A stretch of DNA of 64,000 nt from the NCBI RefSeq assembly GCF_000003815.2, contig NC_049997.1:16231189-16295188 (forward strand), read 5' to 3'. Both the position numbers and the translations under genes were made by a program. This document shows, piece by piece, positions 1 through 38,000 of this stretch. Position 1 is the stretch's first letter, and each line of letters starts with the position of its first letter. A model generated the notes under the pieces. That model did no database searches. It saw only the letters and a program-made list of their open reading frames with translations, and was not told where the DNA came from. This DNA is from Branchiostoma floridae (lineage: Eukaryota; Chordata; Leptocardii; Amphioxiformes; Branchiostomatidae).

Positions 1-1221
1 GCAATGTTCACATTTGTACGGTTTCTCTCCAGTGTGCGTCCTCGTATGCTTCTTTAGAGAGCACAGTTCGCTGAATTCTTTGCTGCACTCCTCACATCTG
101 TAAGGTTTTTCTCCAGTATGAGTCCTCATATGGCTCGTCAGAGCACCCAGCTCAACGAACTGTTTGCTGCACTGTTCGCATTCGTACTGCTTTTCACCGG
201 TGTGATACCGCATATGCCTTTTCAGATAATTCAGCTGACAGAATCGTTTGCTGCACTCCTCACATTTGTAAGGTTTCTCACCGGTGTGAGTCCTCATATG
301 GCTCTTCAGAGAACCCAGCTCACAGAACTGTTTGCTGCACTCCTCACATCTGTATGGTTTCTCACCGGTGTGAGTTCGCATGTGAATCCTCACAGAGTAA
401 AGCTCGCTGAATTGCCGGCCGCACTCCTCACACCTGTAAGGTGTCTCACCGGTGTGAGTCTTCATATGGCTCTTCAGATGACCTGGCGTTCTAAACTGTT
501 TGCTGCACTCCTCACACCTGTAGGGTTTCTCACCGGTGTGTGTCCTCATATGAATCTTCAGATAACCCAACCGACTGAAATGTTTGTTGCATTTGTCACA
601 ACTGTAAGGTTTTTCTCCAGTATGAGTCCTCATATGCATTTTCAGAGAACCCATCTCACTAAACTGCCTACTGCACTCCTCACAGCGATAAGGTTTCTCT
701 CCGGTATGGGTCCTGATATGCTTCGTCAGATCACTTGGGTCACTGAACTGCTTGCTACACTTTTCGCAATTGTACGGTTTCTCATCGGTATGAGTACGCA
801 TGTGTCTGTTCAGATGATCAAGTTGACGGAACTGTTTGTTGCACGTGCCACACGTATAGGGCTTCTCACCGGTATGAGTACGCATGTGTGTCCGTAGAGC
901 ACCCAACTGACTGAACTGTTTGCTGCACTGCTCGCATTTGTAAGGCTTCTCTCCGGTATGAGTCGTCATATGCCTCTTCAGAGAACCCGACTCACTAAAC
1001 TGCCTGCCGCACTCCTCACATCTGTAAGGTTTTTCTCCAGTATGAGTCCTCATATGCTTCTTCAAAGAACTCAGTTCACTGAACTGTTTGCTACATTCCT
1101 CACATTTGTAAGGTTTCTCACCCGTATGTGTCCTCATATGTCTCTTTAGATTATCCAGCTGACTGAACTGTTTGCTGCACTCCTCACACCTATAACTTTT
1201 CTCTCCAGTGTTGGTTGCCAT
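1..1221 (-). CDS. C2H2 zinc-finger protein, 3' part beyond the window
   Basis: The minus strand is open from an ATG at 1221 to the left edge (407 codons) and encodes a short leader (MATNTGEKSYRCEEC) followed by about 14 tandem C2H2 fingers with standard 28-residue spacing (C-x2-C-x12-H-x3-H) joined by TGEKPY-type linkers; a further finger is cut by the edge. Such poly-finger proteins are nuclear and usually bind DNA; no KRAB, BTB or SCAN domain is visible, so activator or repressor role is unknown. The coding exon begins at 1238 after a TTTCTGCAG acceptor, 17 bases before the ATG, implying a non-coding first exon, which I place at about 4125-4240 (2.9-kb intron). It is the mirror-image partner of the zinc-finger gene at 6635-7585, sharing the acceptor and leader sequence. 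The plus-strand open frames over it are shadows. Confidence 0.92.
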   Translation of the reverse strand, partial: MATNTGEKSYRCEECSKQFSQLDNLKRHMRTHTGEKPYKCEECSKQFSELSSLKKHMRTHTGEKPYRCEECGRQFSESGSLKRHMTTHTGEKPYKCEQCSKQFSQLGALRTHMRTHTGEKPYTCGTCNKQFRQLDHLNRHMRTHTDEKPYNCEKCSKQFSDPSDLTKHIRTHTGEKPYRCEECSRQFSEMGSLKMHMRTHTGEKPYSCDKCNKHFSRLGYLKIHMRTHTGEKPYRCEECSKQFRTPGHLKSHMKTHTGETPYRCEECGRQFSELYSVRIHMRTHTGEKPYRCEECSKQFCELGSLKSHMRTHTGEKPYKCEECSKRFCQLNYLKRHMRYHTGEKQYECEQCSKQFVELGALTSHMRTHTGEKPYRCEECSKEFSELCSLKKHTRTHTGEKPYKCEHC

Positions 1222-1539
1222 GTTGATCAAATCTGACACTGCAGAAATAACATTGGAAAAAATGTTTTAGAGATTTTATTAGAAATTAATAGTTGCCAGC
1301 ATGTACGGACATTTTGCATTAGTAAAAATGTGCACGTGGCGACAAAATCCAAGTAAACATTACATGTTATTCTTTAGTACTATCTATGTAGTATCAGCTG
1401 TCAGCTGAAAAGAAAAAGAATTTGGCCAAACAGGGACAAAGTAGTTACGGGTTTTGAGTAAGTCTTTTGCAGTCTAGCCAGTGGCAGAACAGTTAACTCC
1501 TAGGCCAATTAACTCCTACTAGACTACCACTTTTGCTAA

Positions 1540-6191: not shown

Positions 6192-6634
6192 CTAGGGCTG
6201 AGGCACAGTATTTGCTAGCGTGGTGTTTTAGTGTAATATATGTCAGGTAATTATACGTAGGTGACATTATATTTGCAGGAGTGTCAACACTCATTTGGAT
6301 GTTGTTATCAGTGCTAGTTATCTTAGAAACTTCAAGCGGTACTAAAGCGCCGACTTGTAATTCATAATGGTACTGCAGCCTCGAACGGATGAAGATATAC
6401 TTAGTCTAGTACTAGTTCTTGCCATTAAACAAGTTGACGGAAATAGTACTTGCTGTTCCTGTAATAACATGTAATGGTTAATTTCAAACTTATATCACCA
6501 ACGTACACTTTTTTCTTGTATAGTATATAATAAAACGCGGATCTGTCAGTATATGCTAGCGACTATTTATTCCAAGTAAATGTCTAATACACAATTTCCA
6601 TTGATATTTCTGCAGTGTCGGAGATTTGACCAAC

Positions 6635-7585
6635 ATGGCAACCAACCATCTCAAACAATGGGAGACCAGGGAAGGAACTTCAAAGGATCTTCCGCGTACC
6701 CAAATGTGTATCGAGTGCGACATTCAGTTTCCTAATGTTGGTGAGTTTATAAAACATCTGCGCACTCACACTGGAAAGAAACCTTATAGGTGTGGGGAGT
6801 GCAACAAACAGTTTAGTCAGCTGTGTAATCTGAAGAAGCATATGAGGACTCATACCGGAGAAAAACCATACAAGTGTGAGGAGTGTAGCAGAGAGTTTAG
6901 TCATTTGTGTTCACTGAAGAATCATATGAGGACTCACACGGGTGAGAAACCTTACAAATGTGAGGAGTGCAGCAAACAGTTCAGTCAGCTAGGTAATCTG
7001 AAGAATCATATTAGGATTCATACCGGAGAGAAACCTTACAAATGTGAGGAGTGCAGCAGACAGTTCAGTGAGTCGGTTTCTCTGAAGAAGCATATGAGGA
7101 CTCATACCGGAGAGAAACCGTACATGTGTGAGGAGTGCAGCAGACAGTTCAGTCGGCTGGGTTCTCTGAAGAAGCATATGAGGACTCATACTGGAGAGAA
7201 GCCGTACAAATGTGAGGAGTGCAGCAGACAGTTCAGTCAGCTGTTCTATCTGAAGACACACATGCGGACTCATACCGGGCAGAAGCCCTATACATGTGAG
7301 GAGTGCAACAAACAGTTCAGTCAGCGTAGTTCTCTAAAGAGCCACATTCTGACTCATACGGGTGAGAAGCCATTTAGGTGTGAGGAGTGCAGCAGACAAT
7401 TCAGTCATCTGAGTTCTCTAAAGACCCACATACGGACTCATACGGGTGAGAAGCCCTATAGGTGTGATGAGTGCAGCAGACAATTCAGTCATCTGGTTTC
7501 TCTAAAGATCCACATTCGGACTCGTGTGAGATTAGCCCTATATAAGTGTGATGCAGCAAACAGTTCAGTCAGCTCAGTTCTCTAA
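6635..7585 (+). CDS. C2H2 zinc-finger protein with a damaged last finger
   Basis: ATG at 6635 (an upstream in-frame TTG is not used as start) opens a 316-aa protein: leader of about 20 residues, then ten C2H2 fingers. Finger 1 (CIEC...HLRTH) is slightly divergent; fingers 2-9 are canonical with TGEKPY linkers. In finger 10 the last zinc-binding His is replaced by Arg (HIRTR) and the following linker is degenerate (VRLALYKC). An eleventh finger is broken: compared with its neighbours four bases are missing near 7554, the frame shifts and a stop follows at 7583, while finger-like sequence remains readable in another frame to about 7605. Probably a nuclear DNA-binding protein. It is the inverted duplicate of the gene at 1-1221, which has more fingers in its visible part. 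Exon start 6616. Confidence 0.92.
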   Translation: MATNHLKQWETREGTSKDLPRTQMCIECDIQFPNVGEFIKHLRTHTGKKPYRCGECNKQFSQLCNLKKHMRTHTGEKPYKCEECSREFSHLCSLKNHMRTHTGEKPYKCEECSKQFSQLGNLKNHIRIHTGEKPYKCEECSRQFSESVSLKKHMRTHTGEKPYMCEECSRQFSRLGSLKKHMRTHTGEKPYKCEECSRQFSQLFYLKTHMRTHTGQKPYTCEECNKQFSQRSSLKSHILTHTGEKPFRCEECSRQFSHLSSLKTHIRTHTGEKPYRCDECSRQFSHLVSLKIHIRTRVRLALYKCDAANSSVSSVL

Positions 7586-14000: not shown

Positions 14001-16734
14001 CAATTAGTTCAGAGCTGTTTTTTGCAACACAACCCATAGAGATATGACTCATTACACATGCAAAGTTTCATCTAGATCAGACAACTGGAAGTGGGTCAGG
14101 GGCATTACTTATTGAATGCCCCTCGTATACTTGTAACAGTAACAAATTCATGACATGCAGCAAATACGTATACAAAACGTAACTTGGCAGAGCCATGATC
14201 CATAGTTATAATCCATATTCCGGTCCGGATCCGGTCGCAAAGTGAGGTCTGAGGTCAGATCTCAATTTCATAATGATTGTAGCTGTTTTCATTGTTAACG
14301 TTCATTGTCATTCTATATTCTTTAAGCAGAAGACGCTATACACTATATGTTGTCGATACAACAAACTCATTCAGATTCATCCTGAAAAAACTGAAATATT
14401 TTATCTTCGGACATTGAAGAGATTAACAAATGTCCGTTGTTGCTTTTATATTCAATTTTTGCTTTTATGTTCCATTCTGTCTTTTCATATTTTTCTAAAA
14501 ATAAGATTATTGAAATTGCCTTTGATACCTTTTGGCAAACAAATGTAGTCGATCTACCGTGTGCACAAAAGATGGGAGGTTTATCGTTTTAAGAAAGTTC
14601 AGAACATTGCTAGAATCTGTTGAATATGTAACTTGATTTACCGACCATTAACGTGTGTGATTGTACATCTCGGACTTCATCAGTTTCTTTACCTGCTGTC
14701 GAGGCCGCATTCTCCTTTTGTCCATCTCGTTTTGTTCCTTCTGTAGCAAACAAGTTTAAGTGATAAATCGACAACGTATAAAACGATATAAACCACTGAA
14801 ATAATGTAATGTGACATATTTTAATACACGGGAAAAGAAAATGACAACACACCGAATATTTCAGAAAACCTAGGCAGACGGCAGTCGGTACCGTCCTCGT
14901 AGCAACACGGTATACAAAGAAGGGGTAGATGTATTGGATATCAGATACAGCACTTAGTTGTTCTCTATTTTGGTTAATATTTACTGTAAAAAGAGCAAAC
15001 ATGGAGCGGTAGCCAATCTATATCCAACCGTATTGGGCTGAAAGTTTGGATATGGAGGTATGAGGTATGATAACTTTGAGAAGTTAGAAGGAAGATTATT
15101 ACATTTTTCGTGGAGTGAGTGAGTGAGTGAGTGAGTGAGTGAGAATTTGATTACTCATAAAGTAAGGCACTAAAGGCTAAAGGCTTTCAACCCTATTCAG
15201 ACGGGGGGGAGGCTTTTGAGGCTCGCGTCAACTTTCATGTCGTTTAACGCTAGGACGGCTTACGCTAGAGCTACCAAATTTGATGAGTTTTCCTAAAATA
15301 TTGTTAGCAACAATTTCACACGAAGTTTGAAAAATTTGCCATTTTTTCGTGTTGCTATGGCAACCGTTTGCTATAGCATGTTTGATAAAAATCGCTAATT
15401 TCGGTTCTAACAAATTGAATGTATTTTTCACGTTTATTTGCTATTTTACTGCTATTTTCTTACTCAATAATATCTTATATAATCTAGAATGCATTCTAAA
15501 ATAAAATTTCATAATATTTTGCTAATTTGATGACATCATCAGCCGAAATCCAAGATGGTGGGCGTTACGACCAGGTCACGAGTAACTAGCTCATTATCTC
15601 TTAGAATTTGCAACCTTATATTTTTTTCATCCAAAAAAAATAAGTGAATGTAAGTGAGTCTATTTCCATTGCATTTTACGATTATTTGTTGCAAATTTTT
15701 TTTTGGAAAATTCAAGGTTTTGGATATAACTAACCTTTCTCTGCTTCCTGTTTTAGGAAGGCCATGATAGCACCGGTACCTTGTTCGCGCACATCCTGTG
15801 GAGGGTATGTCAGGGGGTTTCCAGAAACATCCAAGTCATTCAGCTTGCCTGCTTGATGAAGAGCGGTTGGGAGCTTGGTGATGTTGTTGTTGCTTATGTC
15901 AAGTTTCTCCATTGCAGGCAGTTCACACAGGACTTCTGGGAATGCGTCGAACTTGTTGTTCAGCAGATGAACCACAAGCAGGTTGTTCATGTGAGCCATT
16001 GTGCTTGGCAGGGTTTTAAGGAAGTTACATTCCAATGACAAGAGCCACATGTTTGGTAAGTTTCCCACTTCATCTGGAACAAAATCAAACTTGCAGCCAC
16101 CAGCCCACAGCTCCTCCAGTGCCTTCAGCTGCAGCACCTGTCTGGGGAACTCATCAAACTGACATCCGGAGATACAGAGAGTGTTCAGCTTAGCGAGTCG
16201 TGCGACATCATCGGGGAGACTCTTGATGGGGTTATTACCGACACTTAATTGCTCGAGGTTGTACAGAAAGCAAAGGGCTTGCGGAAGCTCTGTAAACTGA
16301 TTATCGGAGATGTACAGTTTTTTCAACTTCTGTAGCTTTTCCAAACTAGGAGGCAAACTGGAGAGCTTGTTATTATTGGTAGTTAATACCTCTAGGTTGG
16401 GCAGAGAACAAACGCATTGAGGAAGCTCTGTCAGTTGATTACCATCAATTAATAGGTTTGTCAAATGTCGCAAGGAACCGATCACCCGTGGCAAACTTGT
16501 CAATATGTTGTCTTCAACTTCCAAGTGGTGAAGTTTCCGCAGACGACAGATTCCTTCCGGGATACTGGTTAGCATGTTTTTGGACACAATTAGAAACTCC
16601 AGGTCAGTGATGTCAAACACCTCCTCCGGGATGGACGTCAGACCCTGGTCACTAAGGTCTAGGAAAAGGCGGCCTCCAACGGTCTTAGGCTGGAGGTTTA
16701 GCCCTTCCGCCATGTTGGAACCCTTCTTCTGCAT
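11064..16734 (-). CDS. Leucine-rich-repeat and death-domain protein
   Basis: Six coding exons on the minus strand: 16734-15735, 14740-14693, 13277-13119, 12732-12658, 11880-11774 and about 11206-11064 (stop TAA 11064-11066), roughly 510 aa. Exon 1 (333 codons) holds about 11 short LRRs with 23-residue spacing (LPxxIxxLxxLxxLxxxxNxL type), residues about 20-310. Three small exons then encode a polar, partly coiled-coil linker (ELKAELQRKLRDKRETYEQR). The last two give a death domain: LALKVKPAEWKHIARRLGF, then LIRWRERAGPAASLAVLERC and LHQLADHLI. LRR-death-domain proteins are cytoplasmic adaptors in cell-death or innate signalling; the exact role here is inference. Introns 1-4 are all phase 1. 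The junction into the last exon does not resolve: the CCAG at 11207 is off by one base, while an internal AG at 11190 keeps frame but shortens the domain. An ATTAAA lies near 10930-10935. Confidence 0.85.
11998..12538 (+). mobile_element. MITE family A, copy 3 (both ends visible)
   Basis: Begins CCCTTTTCAGACGGGG and ends CCCCAGTCTGAATAGGG, imperfect inverted termini of a 541-bp element without coding capacity. It lies in the intron between the 12658-12732 and 11774-11880 exons of the LRR-death-domain gene. A flanking block at 12540-12640 recurs inverted at 15056-15185. Confidence 0.7.
13548..14125 (-). mobile_element. Internally deleted mariner element
   Basis: A 578-bp element with inverted ends CGAGGGGCATTCAATAAGTA and TA target duplications at 13546-13547 and 14126-14127, as in mariner elements. 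A minus-strand frame from an ATG at 13942 to 13634 encodes the paired-type helix-turn-helix N-terminal region of a mariner transposase (ECRAVIRFLYLKGRTP, DDAPSYDLVKRW) and then runs into unrelated sequence: the DDD/DDE catalytic part is deleted. It is non-autonomous and lies in an intron of the LRR-death-domain gene. Confidence 0.9.
15110..15142. repeat. (GAGT)n microsatellite
   Basis: About seven GAGT/GTGA units, present in the right arm of the intronic inverted repeat but not in the left, so gained after duplication. Confidence 0.85.
15191..15727 (-). mobile_element. MITE family A, copy 4 (inverted)
   Basis: Reverse orientation copy starting CCCTATTCAGACGGGG at 15191 and running through the inverted GTTGCCATAGCAACACG-type block to about 15727, within about 8 bp of the splice donor of LRR exon 1 (15735). 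With copy 3 and the flanking block it forms inverted arms of about 0.65 kb. Confidence 0.7.
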
Positions 16735-16814
16735 AATCTAGAACAAAAGTATATCAATGATAATGCCCCCAATGCGCACTTGGGTTGACATGCATGACCA
16801 AGACTTAAACGCAT

Positions 16815-26244: not shown

Positions 26245-28966
26245 CAATACCTAATTTTTTACGGAGGTGATAAGATGGCAATCAGAGGCGGCAGAATCTA
26301 CAAATTGCACGCCATCAGACTTTATAACATAATTATCCATGCTGCTTTATTATTAGATACACAGCTTCACATCCAGAAACACAAACAAATAGCCAGTCAC
26401 AGACACAATAGAAAAACTACTGTTTCCTCCCCTTGTTAATTCTTTTTTTGTGTGTTTAAAAAAACTTACCTTTCTTCCATACCAAAATGCTTCCCTTGGA
26501 ATCCCCGGTTATGACGTCACCATTATCGCCGAAGTCCAAGCAATGAACAAACTTGGCCTGATGCTCCTACAAATGAATATAGAACACAGTAATGTGATAC
26601 CAAAATAGGCAGTTATTATCTATATGTAAAATTGTCAATACATTAAACAAGTAACGTTATATCATAAGAAGAGAACAGTACACATCATTGTTTGCTTTAA
26701 AGAAAATTCTATGCAGATCAATTAATTCTGAAAACAGTGGCAAATTATATAGAACAAAAATTCCTTTACTATTTTCAGAACTAGTCAAAATGTATATACG
26801 TAAACATACACTTGGGATTCGCTAGCCAAACAAAATACATAAAATTGTATGTAATTTGTCAGTATCTTAGAATATCTAATTTTGCTGTCTGACAAACCAT
26901 TCATAAATGCACAATCATTTTCTACTGATGAGAGAACTACTGTAAATGCTGAAATGTTCGCGGTTGATTAATGTTCGCGGTTTTCGCGGTGACCACTTTA
27001 CCGTGAATGAACTTAAAAACCACCGCAAACATTTTTCTATTATGGTATTAGACTAGACTGCAGTGTCTATGGTGTTACCGCGAACTTAAATCCACCGCGA
27101 AAAGTCCTTTTTCCCGCAACGCGCGAAATTAAATCCCCGCGAACTTAAATGCATTTACAGTATGTCGAATAATAAACCATTTGGCTTGCCCCTGAGGCGT
27201 CGCCAAAAAGTACCAAACTTACCGCAAACAGTCCTTTCTTCATGGTTAGGAAAGCCTTGCTGCTGGATCCTGCCGTTATTTTCTTGATAGTCCAGAAGCC
27301 GAGATGGTTCTTTCCGGCCGTTACCATCATGTCGCTGTCCATCGGGTGGAAGGCGGCCGTCTCCAACAGGTCTCGTGTGGCCTGTGCATCAAAATAAAGA
27401 ACATGTTTTACATGGGCAGTTAAAACAATGTAAGGAACGCATCTGTGCCTAACATCGAAGGCTTTTGTATAGTCTCCAAATATTTGAGCATCTTGACAAA
27501 TTAGCATTATATTCTAGCAATACTTGTAGATTAAAAAAAAAACTAAAAATCATAGACCCACGTTTTCCCTCTCATTTTTCCGTGTTAATTTCAAACGCAA
27601 GATTCACTACGGCACATTTTATGAAGGATTTTGGTAAACGAGTAAGATAGCTTTTTAAGTTTTTTTATACATTAGAGTGATAGCAACAGTGATATAAGAT
27701 GGACAATAGTCTCCAAAGAAATCTGTTTATTTGTTTCGACAACTCGGAATACCTTTCATGATTTATACTTCTCTCCAAACCCTTAGGGGTGAGATATGAC
27801 TGTCAATATTACTTACCACTGCTTCACAGAGTAAATGTCCATTTTTCCAGTCCCAAACTGTCATAATTTTTCCCGGCGAGTCGTCAACTGCCAGAACTCG
27901 GTCGCCACCATCCTATAGAAAACACATAAAGTTACGTTAAAGTTAATAGCTTGAAAGTCAGTAATCTGTTTTAAAATTGGTAGAAAAGACCCCCCTGCAT
28001 TCTGATTATGAGCGCCATTTTGAAATGCACTCTCGCGAGAGCTCAATTCAGCGAGAACGTGCGTTAGCTTGCACGAAAGCGAGGACGTGCCCCTAGAGGT
28101 CACGTGAGACTAACCGGACATTTTGACTAATCTAAATCGGTAAATGCAAGGACGTTATACACCAGTACACCCAATAGTTGTTCGATAACATAAAATCCCA
28201 ACCGCTGGCAAAAAGATTAAAACCGTTTTGTTGGAAGGAGTATGCACCTGAGCTGGACGTGAAATTCATTTTTAATGGTGTATGCCTTTCATCCAAGCTG
28301 GATTGCGTGTGACATGTAGGTTTTGTTTACCCATCAACAGTCAAAGTCGCATGAAATAACAACACATCCGTAAAGCAACAAAATGGCGTCAGAGGATGCA
28401 AAAGAAACTTCCCCCACTTCTACAAGCCCCGAATGTACCGAAACTTGGGACTGGGTCCGCCTGAATGTCGGCGGGACGATGTTTGAGACCACCCGGACCA
28501 CCCTGGCCCGGCTCAACAGCCAGTTTCTGGACAGACTGCTGGCCGAGGACTCGGGCTTCTCTCCGCCTGCTGACGGAGTCTACAGGATAGACAGGGACCC
28601 GGAGGTGTTCAGGGTTCTACTCAACTTCGCCAGGTAGGGCGTGGCAAAAATTTTCTTCCGTTATGTTGACAAAATTTACCCTGCAGTTTCAGCAAGCCGC
28701 TAGGGGGCCCAAACATACATCACTTATTCCTTACATTACAAGCTATCTGCCACCCAAAAATCAAGACCATAGCATGTCCAGGTCAAAAGATTTTTAAAAA
28801 AAGTTCTGCTGCAGTACCAAGGTCACACACCAGGGGGGCGAATATCGACCTTGACCTTTATCTTTCCAACACCTACCCACATACCAAATATCATTAAAAT
28901 CCATCTGGAGGTTCTAAAGTTATGCTGACCACAAATATCCAGAAGCACAGACACACAGACACACAG

Positions 28967-29000
<34 letters not shown>

Positions 29001-32000
29001 TATCTTCGATTTTCATGGAGGTAAAAAGAATTAGTCTCATTGCAAACCATTAGACAGCTAACTTTGATGTTAACAACCCGCAGGAATGACCGCCTAACCC
29101 TGACACCACAAGTGACGTCAGACATGATACTGGCTGATGCAGGGTTCTACATGCTCCGCCAGGGGGCGCTGCAGGAGGCAATAGAGGGCCTGCAAAAAGA
29201 AAAGACCACTTCGGCCCGAGGCCAGGGAAGGAGATTTTCTTTTCATGGCGTTGGGACGGGGCATCATAATGGGCTAATTTTCGAACGTTTGTCCACTTCA
29301 GTTCAGTACAGTTCCGGTTCATCCAGCAGATATAAATCAATGTGCTCTGTTGGTGCGTGCAACACAAAGGTGTCAAATGAGGATATCGGAGATTTTGTAC
29401 AAGTGTGCATCTCTTGCGATCGAAAATGCCCAGTAAAGCACAAATATAGGGCTGAGTATGGAGAAATTGTAGCAGTAGAGTGGTGCCACAAGTGCCTGCG
29501 ATGTCTGGAATGCCAGGGGGCCGTTTGTTAAGAGAACATCTTTTAAAACAGCATGGCTCTATGATCTGTGGCACATTCAATGATGAAAGCATTGGCAATC
29601 TAAGGGTTTCTTAAATTGACTGTTCACGATACGTCGGTGCAGGTTAGACATTTTAGTACATAATAAGCACAATTTAGTACCAAATAATGTTACTCAAGCA
29701 TATGGCTATGATTTTTGAAACAGTCAGACGTTTCATACAACGTCCGCTCTTTGTCGTCAGTGACACTGACGTTTCAAGATAGATTTTGACGTATTATGTA
29801 TTCATGATACTTAGAAGTACTATATCAAAAAGACTATTGTAAACAAGACGACATAGTTCTGTAGAACAAGGGTGCGTTTAAGTCATGGGAAATGGAAGGA
29901 ATTCTTGAGAATTGAAAATCACTATTACAACGTAATATGCATGTATCATACTCAGCAATATTAGAAGGTATGTATACATAAAGTGTATACATACCGCCTG
30001 AAGGTAGGTATACATAAAGTGATAATTCTATGGCACTAAGGTAAGGTAAATGGTTTGAAAACAAGTATTTCTTTTCAATTGATAAGAGTGCAATTGAAAA
30101 GAGTACACAAGATAATCTAATGTATTAAATATCACACAGGAATGCATTATATACACCTAATCATTTGCATTATGGCATTTATGTTTGTAGTTAAGGTCCT
30201 AAAAATAAGGAATATTTTAGTTAGCCATGTTATATAGATGGGAACAATAACCTGTACTTCTCGCTTCTTTAGGATTGTATACAAATACATAAATTGCTAT
30301 TAAAAGGCAACTTGGAAATTTTCAGTTCTAAAAAGCTGCTGTCATGTTTTCATTAGAAAAAGTGCTTGTTCTCAAGGCTTTATGACCATGTATTACATAG
30401 CGAAAAGTGTATAGTTTTGCAAAGTATGAAATCAAAGAAACAGCATTCAATATCCATTCATTGATTTGATTGTGAAAAAAACAGCACCTAACAACTAATA
30501 AAGTTACCCTGTACTCCAAATTTGCCATGTAACTTTGATTCTGGACTTTTATGCATGGTGCAACCGAGGATAACCACCTTGGTGCAACAGGTCTTGTTTT
30601 CCCGTCAACAGCCAAATCACGTCAAAAGTCCAGTCATACGTGAAGCTTGTTACACAAAACAGCATGGCATCAGTAGCTGCCAGTGTTGTATATGTCCAAG
30701 AAGAAGAAAGTCCTGGCAACTTCAACAACGTCTGCTGCAACCCATGCACAGATGTGCCAAAACGGAAAATTGGGACCTTACACGTTCTAGTACACCAGGG
30801 CATGTTTGGAAATGACCGCAGTGGATGCTGGTCTGATGATGACTATTCTAATTCAGGGGAGTCTGTGGGCATTGGGGACGAGAAACGGGGCCTGGAGCCA
30901 AGATGCTGGCCGGTTTGGGCCCTAGCTGAAATGTGCGGTGTAGTACCTATTTTACCACCGTTTGCCCATCAACAGTCAAAGTAACGTGAAACTACACTCT
31001 GTTATAGTTTCGCCCTTTCTTTCATGAATATTAATGTAGAGCCATCCGCTGAAGTCTTGTTGGGCTTGGTGCCAAACTTAAGGAGCCGCACTATGCTATG
31101 CCATGATAAAAAGGGCGAAACTATAACAGTATATTGTTAGCCATTGAAACAGTCTGGCATCCGGGCCGAATGCGTGGTATGACAGCTAGGTTATTTGTTT
31201 GGCCATCAACAGTCAAAAATTGTGTGAAACTACATCCTGTCATAGTTTCGCCCTCTACTTCTCATGAGTATCAGTAGCAATCCGTTGAAGTGGCACAACA
31301 ACAAAATGGCTTCAGAAGAAGCAAACGCAACTTCCACCACTACAACCCCCGAATGTGCCGTATTGGGGGACTGGGTCCGCCTGAATGTCGGCGGGACGAT
31401 GTTTGAGACCACCCGGACCACCCTGGCCCGGCTCAACAGCCAGTTTCTGGACAGACTGCTGGCCGAGGACTCGGGCTTCTCTCCGCCTGCTGACGGAGTC
31501 TACAGGATAGACAGGGACCCGGATGTATTCAGGGTCCTGCTCAACTATGCAAGGTATGGCGTAGTAAAAAGTATCACCTGCACGCGAGTTTTTTTTTAGC
31601 ATGTATGACCACTAGTTTCCGTTACATGTCTCCATATGGTGACTTATCGTAGGCTACATGGATATAAGCTTGTTCACCATTCCGAGTGCAACGACATGAA
31701 TCTTGGTGATACGTCAAAGGCAAAAGCCTCTGAGGCATAAACAAAACACGGACGGATGTTGTTACGGCCTTCTTTCCACTAGACAGAGAATGCGCTTCGC
31801 TCTCACGGTGACCTAAACAGGATACGTGTCTTTACCTTTGACATATAACCACACTCTCGCTGGGCTTAAGTTCTCGCAATGGTAAACATAACGGACTTGT
31901 TGTTATGTTGCTTTTAGGTGTCGCCTGTAATTTGATTTGTTACGTAATAGCTCTTTCCTGAGAAGATAAACAAACTGTGATGACTGATGTCCAAAATTCA

Positions 32001-35000
32001 GACCAAATCCCAAAATCAGCAGCAAATAAGATAAATTTCATATTCAGCAGGATAAACAGTAAGCCTTATTGTAGCCTCATTTGGAAATGCAGTTGATATT
32101 TGTATATAGCTTTTCTTGTAAACAATCCACAGAAACGGCCGTCTCCTCCTGTCACCACAAGTGACGTCAGACATGTTGTCTGCTGCTGCAGAGTTCTACA
32201 TGCTCCGACAGGGGGCGCTGGAGGTAATAGAGGGACTGAGCAAAGAGACAAGTTCGGCTCGAGTACGGGGCAGAAGATACAAAGTGCCCGCAGAAATTTC
32301 GATTCAATGCGAAGGGACAGACCATCACAATGGACTGATCTTTCAAAACTCCCGTAATTACCCTTACCAATATCAGAGAAGATGTTCCATTGACAAGTGC
32401 ACGGCTAAAATGTTTGATGAGGAACCCCAACAATTCAGGCAGATGTGTATCTCCTGCCATCGTTATGTTGTAGTAGAACAGAAGCCTGTACCAGCGAGGG
32501 GCACAATTGTAGGTGTAGAGTGGTGCCACAAGTGCCTGAGATGTCTCGATTGTCAAGAAACCATCTGCCTACCGTAAGAATACACATGACTGTATAGCCG
32601 GCCAAGACGGCACAGTCCTATGGCAGTACGATGGGGTGAAGAGATTAAAAACCATAGGTAGGATTTGTCGATGAAGGTTAGACATCCAGGTAATAAGATA
32701 CGCCAAAAAGTAGTTACTCAAGCAACTGGATATGATTTCGGAAGGTACGATTTATTTTGACAAGCTAAGTTTGCATACTACATTAGTAGGATTTATTTTG
32801 ACAAGTTTGCGTTTCAAGCCACAATATTTATCATATTTCAAGACATGGAATACATTAATTATTGTATCCATAAAGGCACACATTTTGGACGTTGGTCTTT
32901 AGGGATATCAAAACAAGCCACAAACTTTATCTGTTGGAGAACAATAGCCTGAACGCTTCACTTCTACATTGCTATCAAAGCGACATCTTCATTATTAGCA
33001 AAATCACTTGTTCTGAAGCTATATGGTTATATATATTGCATGGGTAAAATGTATAGCTTTGTAAGATGTTAATCTAAACAGCAGCTAATATTCATTGACT
33101 TGATTGGAAATAACAATATCAAACAACTATTAAATGCAAAGTTATCCGCTTTTCCGTGTTGCATCTTGCAACTTTACTTCTGAACTTTTATGCACGGTGC
33201 AAAAAGTCTTCTTGTTTACCCGTCAATAGCTTAAGTCACGTGAAATGTCACGTCATCCATCGAGCTTGTCCAACAAGAAGCTAGATCAAGTCACGGCAAC
33301 TTTGACAATGTCTACTGTAAGTCCCGGAGGTCCTGAAACGGGGGACTGCGTCCGTACCTGTTCTGTACAATATTGCTTGTTATTTTGATTACGGAAAAAA
33401 AACGTTCTTGATGCTGAAGTTGAACTGTCTCCTTTGCCAATGGAGTCTGTTGTAACATTACATTGGGGGCCTGTTGGACCGAGGAGCCGAGAAGTTGTCC
33501 TATGTAGGCCCTTGAAACAGTCTGACTGCGGTATAACAGCTAGGTTTCGTTTGCCCATCAACAGTCAAAGTCGCCGATCTATTTACCAAAAATATTGATA
33601 TAGAGCCCTTGACGTGGCATAACAACAAAATGACTCGGGCTTCTCTCCGCCTGCTGACGGAGTCTACAGGATAGACAGGGACCCGGATGTGTTCAGAGTT
33701 CTTCTGAACTTTGCCAGGTAAATTCACTGTGTCTAGGGCACAGCATTGCAATGTTGAGCCCAAACGAAAATGATTTGCGTGTGAGGTGGTTAAGGTTTTA
33801 TACATTAAACGCAACCATATGGACATGTTTTATTGTGCTGAACAGTCCCAAAGCCATTTTCAATCACTACGTCACTAACGAACTGAGGCTGGTCATATGA
33901 CTAGCTGACCAAAGTTGATTCGTGGATTCAACGGCTTGTTTGTATCTGGGAAGGGTATACATTCATTCGGAAGTTATGGTTTAATTCTAAAGCTTACATG
34001 CACCCAAAAAGGGTATTTGGGGGTTGTTGACTGTATGATGTTACTCAGTCCATGAGGTGTTACAAAAATTAAATTTGTGATATCATTGTTAAGACATATG
34101 CTATTTTATTTTTCTCGTGGTAACCTAGAGGACCTTCATATCTCATACGTCGTTAGACATATATACACAAGCTGAAACGTACTGCTAAATGGACCTGGAA
34201 GCACAATAATTCCTCTGTGTTAAATAATGAATACGGAAAATGAAATATGGGCATTGATGAACAATTCAAGTTGTATGCATATTACAGTACATGTTGTATG
34301 CATATTACAGTTGTATGCATATCACATAGCTGATGGGAATAGGCTGGCTTAACCCCTTTCTTCTTCTTCCGTCGAAACGTTTCAGGCAACACATACTACT
34401 TTTCAGCGGTATTTGAGAACTACCAAGCTCCCTAGCGAATCACTTTGGGGTTTCAATGTGATTGCTTGCTTGGGATTGCTTGTTATACATGATACTAGTA
34501 TTTCCTTGACACACCCTCAGGAATGGTCAACTTCTCCTGTCGCCACTAGTGACGTCAGACATGCTGTCTGCTGCTGCAGAGTTCTACTTGCTCCGACAGG
34601 GGGCGCTGGAGGCAAGAGAGGGACTCGGCAAGGAGACGACAAGTTTGGCTTCAGGACAGGGTAGCAGATACTTGCCCGAAAAAGTTTTAGTGCAACACAT
34701 AGGGAAGGAGCACCACAATGGTCTGGTTTTGAAATATTCGTCCGGATGGAAGGCAAGATGTTTAAATGACAAGTGTGCGATAGAATTTATTGGTCGACAG
34801 ACCGAATTCAATCAGATGTGTATTTCGTGCCATCGTTATATTCTGATAAAACAAAATTCTATATTATCGGAGGGCGTCATTTTTGCTGTGGAGTGGTGTC
34901 ACAGATGTCTGCGGTGTTTTGATTGTCAAGAAATCATCTGTCTTCCGTAAGAAGAGATATTACATATATTCTATAACGGCATAGCATTGTTGATACATGT

Positions 35001-38000
35001 ACTAAGGGTAGGGTAAGGCAATGGGTTAGGAATCAAAGAATGAGTGCAGTACTGTGTTTGTATCATACGTATTTTTTTAACGACTGTATGTACGTACACA
35101 TACAAGTGAATGGCAACGAAATGGGTATGTGTCATTCAAGATGTATACTATAACAAAATCAATTCTGGTATTTACAACCTGTCATAGAATTAACTGATGC
35201 AATAGATGTTATGGGGTATTAGGTGTAAGGGTGTTTTAATTTAGTTTGTATTTAATATACAGAAATTGAACTAATAATTACATTATTACAACATACGATT
35301 CATAAGCACAATACGCTAAGTACATCTAGTTGTGAAAGGATAAGGATACTTACCGAGACCGAAAAAGACACTGCGCAAACTCCAAATTGTAGCTTTCCTC
35401 CGCCAATCACAGCCAATGTCTGTAAGGTTTTGGAGTCCCACACTCTAACATGAGGCTGAAGTAGAGAGAAAATAGAAACATTTGGTTTAAAATAATCGTA
35501 TACAAACTAGTGGTCTCCATATCAAGGTGTGTGTGCAATGTTGTAAAAAGGGGATTCTTACCACATTTTTGTCATTTTTGTACTATTACCAATAAATTGC
35601 TCTGCTATTTAAATTTATGCAACGTCATATTGTTATGCTATTCACGTAAAAGTCGTATCCATTCAGTTCCTGTAAACATTAAAGAAGTACTTCATGAAGC
35701 TGTGGTGAACAAAATAAAATGTGGAATACTTCAGCAGATCAAGCAAAATAAATATTGTCACTAGATTCTCCCACAAACAGTCTAAGTAGGCTAATATTTT
35801 AAACCAACGTTATAGCCCCTTACCTTGTACCAGTTGGGATCAGGAGTTCCATAGAATCCGTCAAACTTTTCGTATACAGAGATCTGAAGGGAGAAATAAC
35901 AGTTTATATATCTACCGTAAAGTGAGTTATAGTAGGTAATAATTCATTCAATAAAATTCGTTAGGGCGTATATTCATACAAAACACCTTCAAGGTCGTGT
36001 ATGCTATCATTCGGACCAGATGTAGTGCCAAAATGGACAGTTGCAACCAGTATTTTAACCTGTTTTCTGAGGATTCCATTTGACCCTTTCTTCTACTACC
36101 AGAACGAGAAGAAATATGGCGTCTGTTCATGGGAAATTCCAAACAAACCAAGCAAAGCAATTTGAACTAAGACTGCCTTTCGCTCAGAGCTCTTTCACGT
36201 GCACAATCATTTTGGATCGTCATTACCCTCACCTGTTCTCTCCGGTTGACCCCCATTACCTGTCCGCTCGTCACCAGGACACCCGCGGGATGGACCGCCA
36301 GACTGAAGTGTGATAACAACAGATATGCTATATTACAGAGCACTAGAAAGGCTCCGCTCCTGTGGCGTTACCAAAAAGGGCACTCTGGGCCCGATAGAGC
36401 ATTTTCCAACAATGTCATTCCATTCATATCCTTATTTGGAGAACAACTGTTATAAACTCAGTGATAGCCTGTAGAAATATAATAATATACATCATTTGAC
36501 AGATCCCATTGCATGCTGGGAACGGCAGAGTATTATGGGTAACACACGAATAAACTAAAATGACAGAGGCGTCATGATAATGATTTTGTTTGATGTTTGA
36601 AAAGGTTTGAAACAGTCCCTGGCCAAAAAAGTGTACCAATGTCAGAGAATATTCCAAGGTCAAAGACGATGTGAAACACAAATTTAAAACAAAGAATCTA
36701 TTGTTCGGTATACTACATTTTTTGTGTACATGTGTTCAGTCATATCCCCAACCTTCCTGACCACATAGAAAAAATACCTCCTTGCCTTATTTTCTATCAC
36801 TAATAGAGGCTATGACACTAATTTGTCAGACCATGTGGCAGCGTCCTTCAGCGATCTACATGCAAAGTGCATGCAAAACGTACTATCGTTGCTATCCACA
36901 GACATATCGCTAGAGGGCACAACTGTGTGGTCTCGCCAAATCAACTTGGCCTTACCATTGTATACTGGAGTTGTGCCCCAGGTAGTGTCTCTGTGTGCCG
37001 GCTCTAGGGTCGTACAGCACCGCGACTGACGCGATGTTGTAGATGATCTCACCGCTAGCGAGCTCGTGTAGGTTATCGGCACAGTCACGGCCACGGTAGC
37101 CGTATCTGAACAAAATGTTAAGCTCATGACAAAACAAGACAGCGGATAAAATAGAAAGACGATACGAAATAAGGCACAAAAGAAAAATAATGGTTTACAT
37201 TAATAGTAAGACCGAATTTTTACCATACAACGTGATTGTATTGCAATAAGTATAGTTTACCTAAGATTAAGTAGAGTATAAGTATTCAAACGTTGTAAAG
37301 GTTGGATCATTTTATAACTGTCAAAATTCTGTATGATTGTAGAAACGAGGGTACGTAGTCCATGAGTGTATCCATTTGATGAAACACCTCATCCCAACGT
37401 GATGCTTGTAAGAAAATAAGCTGTAATTTGGGGGATCACCAATGGAAAATTTTTCCTAAGCGACGAAGGAAGGTATACTTAAAATGAGTTGATGGTTTTT
37501 TTTTAATACTCAAATCGCTAGTTTGTATTAGAGACTAATTGCAATACTCAACTAAAGAGGGTTTATCAAATAGTCCTGGATTCGTTGAAAATTGGACACT
37601 GACAGTTTTTATCCCATAGCTTATGGTTGAATAAAGATTTGAATACAGAACTGTCTAAAGAGCTTTGAGGATATTAAACGATCCTAGTGAGCGAGGGGTC
37701 ATTGACCTGCTAGACAACAAAACAGTACCTTTAAAGGTGAAGGCCCCTAGGCTATATTACAAAACACGTCTGAACATGTTATGCAAATCGAGACGATGGT
37801 CGAGACTAGGCCGTTTACAAGTCAGGGGCCTTCACCTTTGACATATTATCCACAATCCCAGTCGCCACACATGCGCACTAGTACTCGGAATAGCGAATAA
37901 GCTTAGTCGTTCTTTCCATAAATTGTGCAAAGTGCAAACTTGCCCAATATGCCAGTGAGATATCTCTAAGCCTAGCCATTTTGAATACGCTTTATAAGAT

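Follow-up and report, generated by a model that had tools for sequence, protein, structure and literature searches.

A tandem cluster of KCTD-type BTB genes with an uncatalogued cysteine-rich tail in a lancelet genome

Our analysis of a 64,000-nucleotide stretch of Branchiostoma floridae DNA (hereafter the window) points to two probably working KCTD-type genes, U1 and U2, accompanied by a truncated copy, U3, and we lean towards the view that the two genes encode BTB-assembled proteins displaying probably zinc-stabilised, partner-binding tails. What we describe, a KCTD variant whose Cys-rich tail is uncatalogued, is a real but modest local novelty and not a new system. The more interesting part is not the fusion of BTB domain and tail but the homogenised BTB exon set against a diverging tail exon.

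Results

Gene units

The features of the cluster are collected in Table 1. U1 and U2 are two-exon genes with GT/AG splice sites, and in both the spliced frame stays open up to the stop codon. A preliminary description of this DNA had counted three tandem two-exon units; the count holds for U1 and U2, which are intact, and fails for U3, whose truncated first exon has 86 nt left. Exon 1 of U3 is missing 160 nt relative to U2 and 163 nt relative to U1, and the loss, which is out of frame, took the start and half of the BTB domain. The ATG at 33630 lies in another frame, and the exon-1 remnant is preceded by two in-frame stops. Because its first exon is without these 160-163 bases, U3 reads as probably a broken copy. 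A U3 product, if made, could not contain a whole BTB domain unless an undetected upstream exon supplied it. An assembly error could instead have produced the apparent deletion.

Table 1. Positions of the cluster's features and of the flanking host exons, numbered from the first base of the window
Feature	Position	Strand	Basis
U1 exon 1: start and first two thirds of BTB_2 domain	28383..28633	+	splice sites, Pfam
U1 exon 2: BTB end, then Cys-rich tail, stop codon	29084..29531	+	open frame
U2 exon 1: start and first two thirds of BTB_2 domain	31306..31553	+	genome profile search
U2 exon 2: BTB end, then Cys-rich tail, stop codon	32133..32577	+	open frame
U3 exon-1 remnant: last 86 nt of the BTB exon, without in-frame start	33632..33717	+	alignment to U1/U2
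U3 exon 2: open frame, nine shared Cys retained	34521..34950	+	translation, alignment
U1 tail, just before HHNGL to last residue	29256..29528	+	
U2 tail, just before HHNGL to last residue	32317..32574	+	
U3 tail, just before HHNGL to last residue	34705..34947	+	
157-nt tract of U1 BTB core, identical to 31367-31523	28447..28603	+	
157-nt tract of U2 BTB core, identical to 28447-28603	31367..31523	+	
EML-like host exon upstream of the cluster-bearing intron	35354..35458	-	PDB match
EML-like host exon downstream of the cluster-bearing intron, in phase with 35354-35458	27817..27912	-	

The BTB domain and its identical core

The N-terminal domain had been described as a BTB/T1 domain of KCTD type, and database matches bear this out. 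Exon 1 of U1 matches Pfam BTB_2 with E 3.4e-12, and the genome search with the same domain recovers U1 (8.5e-11) and U2 (5.9e-11). When spliced U2 is compared with the PDB, the top matches are the BTB domains of KCTD17 (5e-17) and KCTD5 (1.3e-16), and among the 60 of 90 matches listed none extends beyond residue 119, where the BTB ends. In U1 and U2 the domain spans exon 1 and the beginning of exon 2. As regards KCTD membership, an N-terminal BTB_2 is thus present in U1 and U2, and the first half of the domain is absent from U3.

Within the BTB core, U1 and U2 share a tract of 157 identical bases, and the first 56 nt of the U3 remnant are identical to the last 56 nt of this tract in U2. A gapped alignment of the two first exons gives 228 identical positions in 248, or 71 of 91 outside the tract; in exon 2, 294 of 420 aligned bases are identical. 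For an identical run of 157 bases, the chance probability is about 3e-4 if divergence is 5% and 7e-8 if it is 10%. A sister gene elsewhere in the genome (see below) differs from the tract at 21 of 155 positions, so that the DNA of the tract is free to vary. Since the BTB core holds 157 identical bases while exon 2 is strongly diverged, the pattern suggests gene conversion between tandem copies, which is the simplest account and probably the right one. A recent duplication restricted to the exon-1 piece would leave a similar pattern.

The cysteine-rich tail

The tail is about 90 residues long and, in U1 and U2, lies C-terminal to the KCTD5-like BTB_2. The preliminary description held that the tails share a set of motifs while most other residues differ, as we also find: HHNGL, C-x4-C, CISC and WC-H-x-C-L-R-C-x2-C-Q are common to all three exon-2 products, nine cysteines are invariant among them, and the alignment of the tails, three paralogues of one genome, has 29 invariant columns among 79 ungapped ones. 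Invariance is concentrated in the columns that hold cysteine (9 of 10, against 20 of 69 for the others; Fisher p 3.6e-4), and in this alignment the tail cysteines are more conserved than the other residues. Judged solely from the conservation and spacing of these cysteines, the tail is likely to bind zinc.

Synonymous differences exceed nonsynonymous ones in all three pairwise comparisons of the tails (pS/pN 0.76/0.32, 0.85/0.36 and 0.57/0.28), synonymous change being saturated for the two pairs other than U2-U3. For U2-U3 the constraint appears moderate, because dN/dS is 0.45 by NG86 and 0.79 by YN00. The substitution pattern indicates that exon 2 is under purifying selection.

What the tail resembles

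The preliminary description called the family undescribed-looking and its architecture unfamiliar. Profile searches of Pfam and the PDB agree with this description, as they returned no named domain and nothing convincing for the tail, the preceding BTB_2 being the recognisable part. With the three tails as queries and E up to 10, a setting at which HMMER's filters discard most matches above about 0.1, Pfam gave no recognised domain and no LIM match. Its weak rows, UCH_1 (6.4), Fer4_10 (0.56) and NinD (9.2), were taken as chance, as was a Fer4_10 row (E 0.025) obtained with a 42-residue piece of U1. The sole PDB profile match to the tails, papillomavirus E6 (E 0.72 and 0.57), was also put down to chance. 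AlphaFold2, given three sequences only, returned pLDDT values of 35.7 and 45.9 in two predictions, both below usable confidence.

The tail stretch W-[C]-x2-C-[LF]-R-C-x2-C matches the LIM core, which is also visible in the 18 LIM domains, hand-picked among the near full-length, stop-free ones of the genome's 74 LIM matches, from which we built an HMM. Its best-domain scores are 6.2 bits for U2, 6.9 for U3 and 0.3 for U1, and its alignment covers finger 1, with Cys for His, together with the first Cys pair of finger 2. In a control in which every cysteine stays in place and all other residues are permuted (n=2000), the real score was reached by 74 shuffles for U2, 53 for U3 and 593 for U1. Beyond the spacing of the cysteines the LIM-like signal is thus weak, being slight in the U2 and U3 tails and absent from U1. 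An HMM of FLYWCH, an unrelated finger, built from six of the genome's 11 matches (two of which carried 30 extra upstream bases), scored 2.0, -0.2 and -1.6 bits for U2, U3 and U1, reached by 43, 131 and 571 of 2000 Cys-fixed shuffles. Since for U2 this score is about as rare in shuffles as the LIM score, the LIM signal is not specific. A FLYWCH/WRKY-like reading of the C-x4-C stretch, for which FLYWCH was the one profile tried, is unsupported, given the low scores and the lack of a Pfam match. Of the proposal that the tail is related to one LIM finger, the register with finger 1 therefore stands; the relationship itself is left with nonspecific scores close to those of Cys-fixed shuffles and no Pfam LIM match. 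Set against the two fingers and eight ligands of a LIM domain, the tail offers one finger-like stretch and one Cys pair, and its chain stops 5 (U1) or 7 (U2, U3) residues past the pair that resembles the second finger.

Distribution and a sister gene

The genome searched comprises 513 Mb in 431 contigs, with the window on contig C19. Searched with U2 exon 2, it yielded the three copies in the window plus two weak matches (E 1.48 and 2.35); with the U3 tail, it yielded those three copies and a single weak match (E 3.11). Both searches score the best candidates only and give lower bounds, and within that scope no tail copy was found outside the cluster. The matches at E 2.35 and 3.11, on contigs C1 and C19, look like chance. 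At the DNA level the pattern WCH[KR]C[LF][RS]C, allowing up to two mismatches, occurs at 36 genome places against 29 for a control pattern, and without mismatch at three, all within the window. Of the 33 mismatched places, six were checked by translation in the matching frame, and inspection by eye showed no comparable open tail in any of them. In collections of viral and prokaryote contigs no relative was confirmed.

The match at E 1.48 comes from the BTB half of the sister gene (locus L012, at about 20.101 Mb of contig C3). Over 62 aligned residues the protein encoded by its first exon shares 94% identity with U1 and 90% with U2, and its intron position is the same. Unlike the cluster genes, it stops some 30 residues beyond the BTB when read without further splicing. 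A tblastn search of roughly 4.6 kb of downstream sequence with U1 and U2 (E up to 0.05) returned no tail. The tail may have been gained in the cluster or lost from the sister gene.

Genomic setting

The two host exons of Table 1, when joined, match EML1 (4ci8) with E 3.8e-15, and on this evidence the cluster sits antisense within a single intron of an EML-like (WD-repeat) gene, which we take to be a gene for a microtubule protein. A 37-nt motif has six copies, at 28325, 30596, 30960, 33214, 33549 and 35765, with 62-100% identity to the reference; five copies are located 5' of units or between units. These copies may be repeated 5' regions or remnants of them, and the one at 35765 (62%) may be chance. 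A 141-nt piece around a further, related stretch upstream of U2 has at least two genome places, the two found both lying inside the cluster; as the piece is confined to these in a lower-bound search, a dispersed repeat was rejected as the source of the 5' region. Upstream of U2 there is also an inverted repeat (30990-31026 and 31102-31138), with 37-nt arms that are 84% complementary. Elsewhere in the window, inspection by eye picks out long open frames of C2H2 zinc-finger repeats at 1-1266 (minus strand) and 6605-7582 (plus strand) and a leucine-rich-repeat open frame at 15733-16737 (minus strand).

Discussion

How might such proteins work? By analogy with KCTD5, the KCTD5-like BTB would form a homo- or hetero-oligomer, and the oligomer would then display several small Cys-rich tails, probably stabilised by zinc. 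The tail would most likely be the part that recognises a partner protein. If gene conversion keeps the BTB domains alike, the paralogues may co-assemble as their tails diverge, and homogenisation of the BTB may indeed serve such co-assembly. An assembly-domain exon that is homogenised, apparently by gene conversion, next to a tail exon that diverges is a layout that may allow mixed assemblies. With the tail, the list of domains known after a KCTD-type BTB would grow by one small Cys-rich module.

A role in ubiquitination can also be considered. According to PMC10856315, the alpha2-beta3 loop makes most CUL3 contacts; section 18 of that paper suggests that a proline within this loop could account for the lack of CUL3 binding by KCTD1/15. 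Placed by alignment to KCTD5, the presumed CUL3-contact loop of our BTB domains is FSPPADG, which holds the pair PP. Because of these two prolines, we rate the possibility that the U1 and U2 proteins act as CUL3 ubiquitin-ligase adaptors no better than even.

Several other readings of the tail bear on the proposal of BTB-assembled, tail-displaying proteins. A bolder version of it, which we find somewhat unlikely, makes the tail a new zinc-binding domain on a KCTD BTB, possibly restricted to lancelets; gene conversion would hold the BTB core identical, paralogues would thereby co-assemble, and the mixed oligomers would carry differing recognition tails. It is doubtful that the tail is instead a diverged LIM-type finger, a treble-clef with Cys for the first-finger His that was captured after the BTB: the W-[C]-x2-C-[LF]-R-C-x2-C stretch fits the LIM core and the HMM aligns it in the register of finger 1, but some Cys-fixed shuffles reach the scores of all three tails, FLYWCH is about as rare for U2, Pfam yields no LIM match at E up to 10, and the remainder of finger 2 is absent. 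We think it improbable that the tail is a strongly diverged version of the canonical KCTD C-terminal domain and no new module at all. It does occupy that domain's place after the BTB, and PMC13361646 reports that the BTB is the defining element of the KCTD family and that the C-terminal domains are highly diversified. However, the match to the longer KCTD5 chains ends at the BTB, spliced U2 has no recognisable KCTD C-terminal domain among the PDB matches listed, and none is seen in the sister gene.

The whole cluster could also be a young, decaying family of duplicates without function, its open frames being recent leftovers. Half of the BTB exon of U3 is gone, partial copies of the 5' region lie within the intron, and the genome searches, which give lower bounds, brought up three tails only, as would suit decay. 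The tails nevertheless have pS of 0.57-0.85 against pN of 0.28-0.36, their frames are open and their cysteines are retained, and we consider wholesale decay a poor prospect.

We found no paper on a BTB_2 domain followed by a Cys-rich tail among the titles and abstract openings of the open-access literature. According to PMC4284660, new domain pairs are gained by lancelets at a rate above 10 per million years, with 941 candidate novel domains being conserved between two lancelets but missing in vertebrates. Given this reported speed of gain, a fusion of BTB and tail is not very surprising.

Among known systems, the LIM domain (PF00412) shares with the tail the Cys spacing of finger 1 and the W-x3-C-[FL]-R-C-x2-C core; the tail departs from it in having Cys for His, an incomplete second finger, an extra upstream C-x4-C and a score near that of Cys-fixed shuffles. 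Another comparison is with the KCTD2/5/17 group. The BTB_2 of U2 is nearest to KCTD17 and KCTD5 among solved chains, and both the group and the cluster have a short C-terminal region after the BTB. In the cluster, unlike the group, this region is Cys-rich and does not match the C-terminal region of KCTD5, and the presumed CUL3-contact loop carries a pair of prolines.
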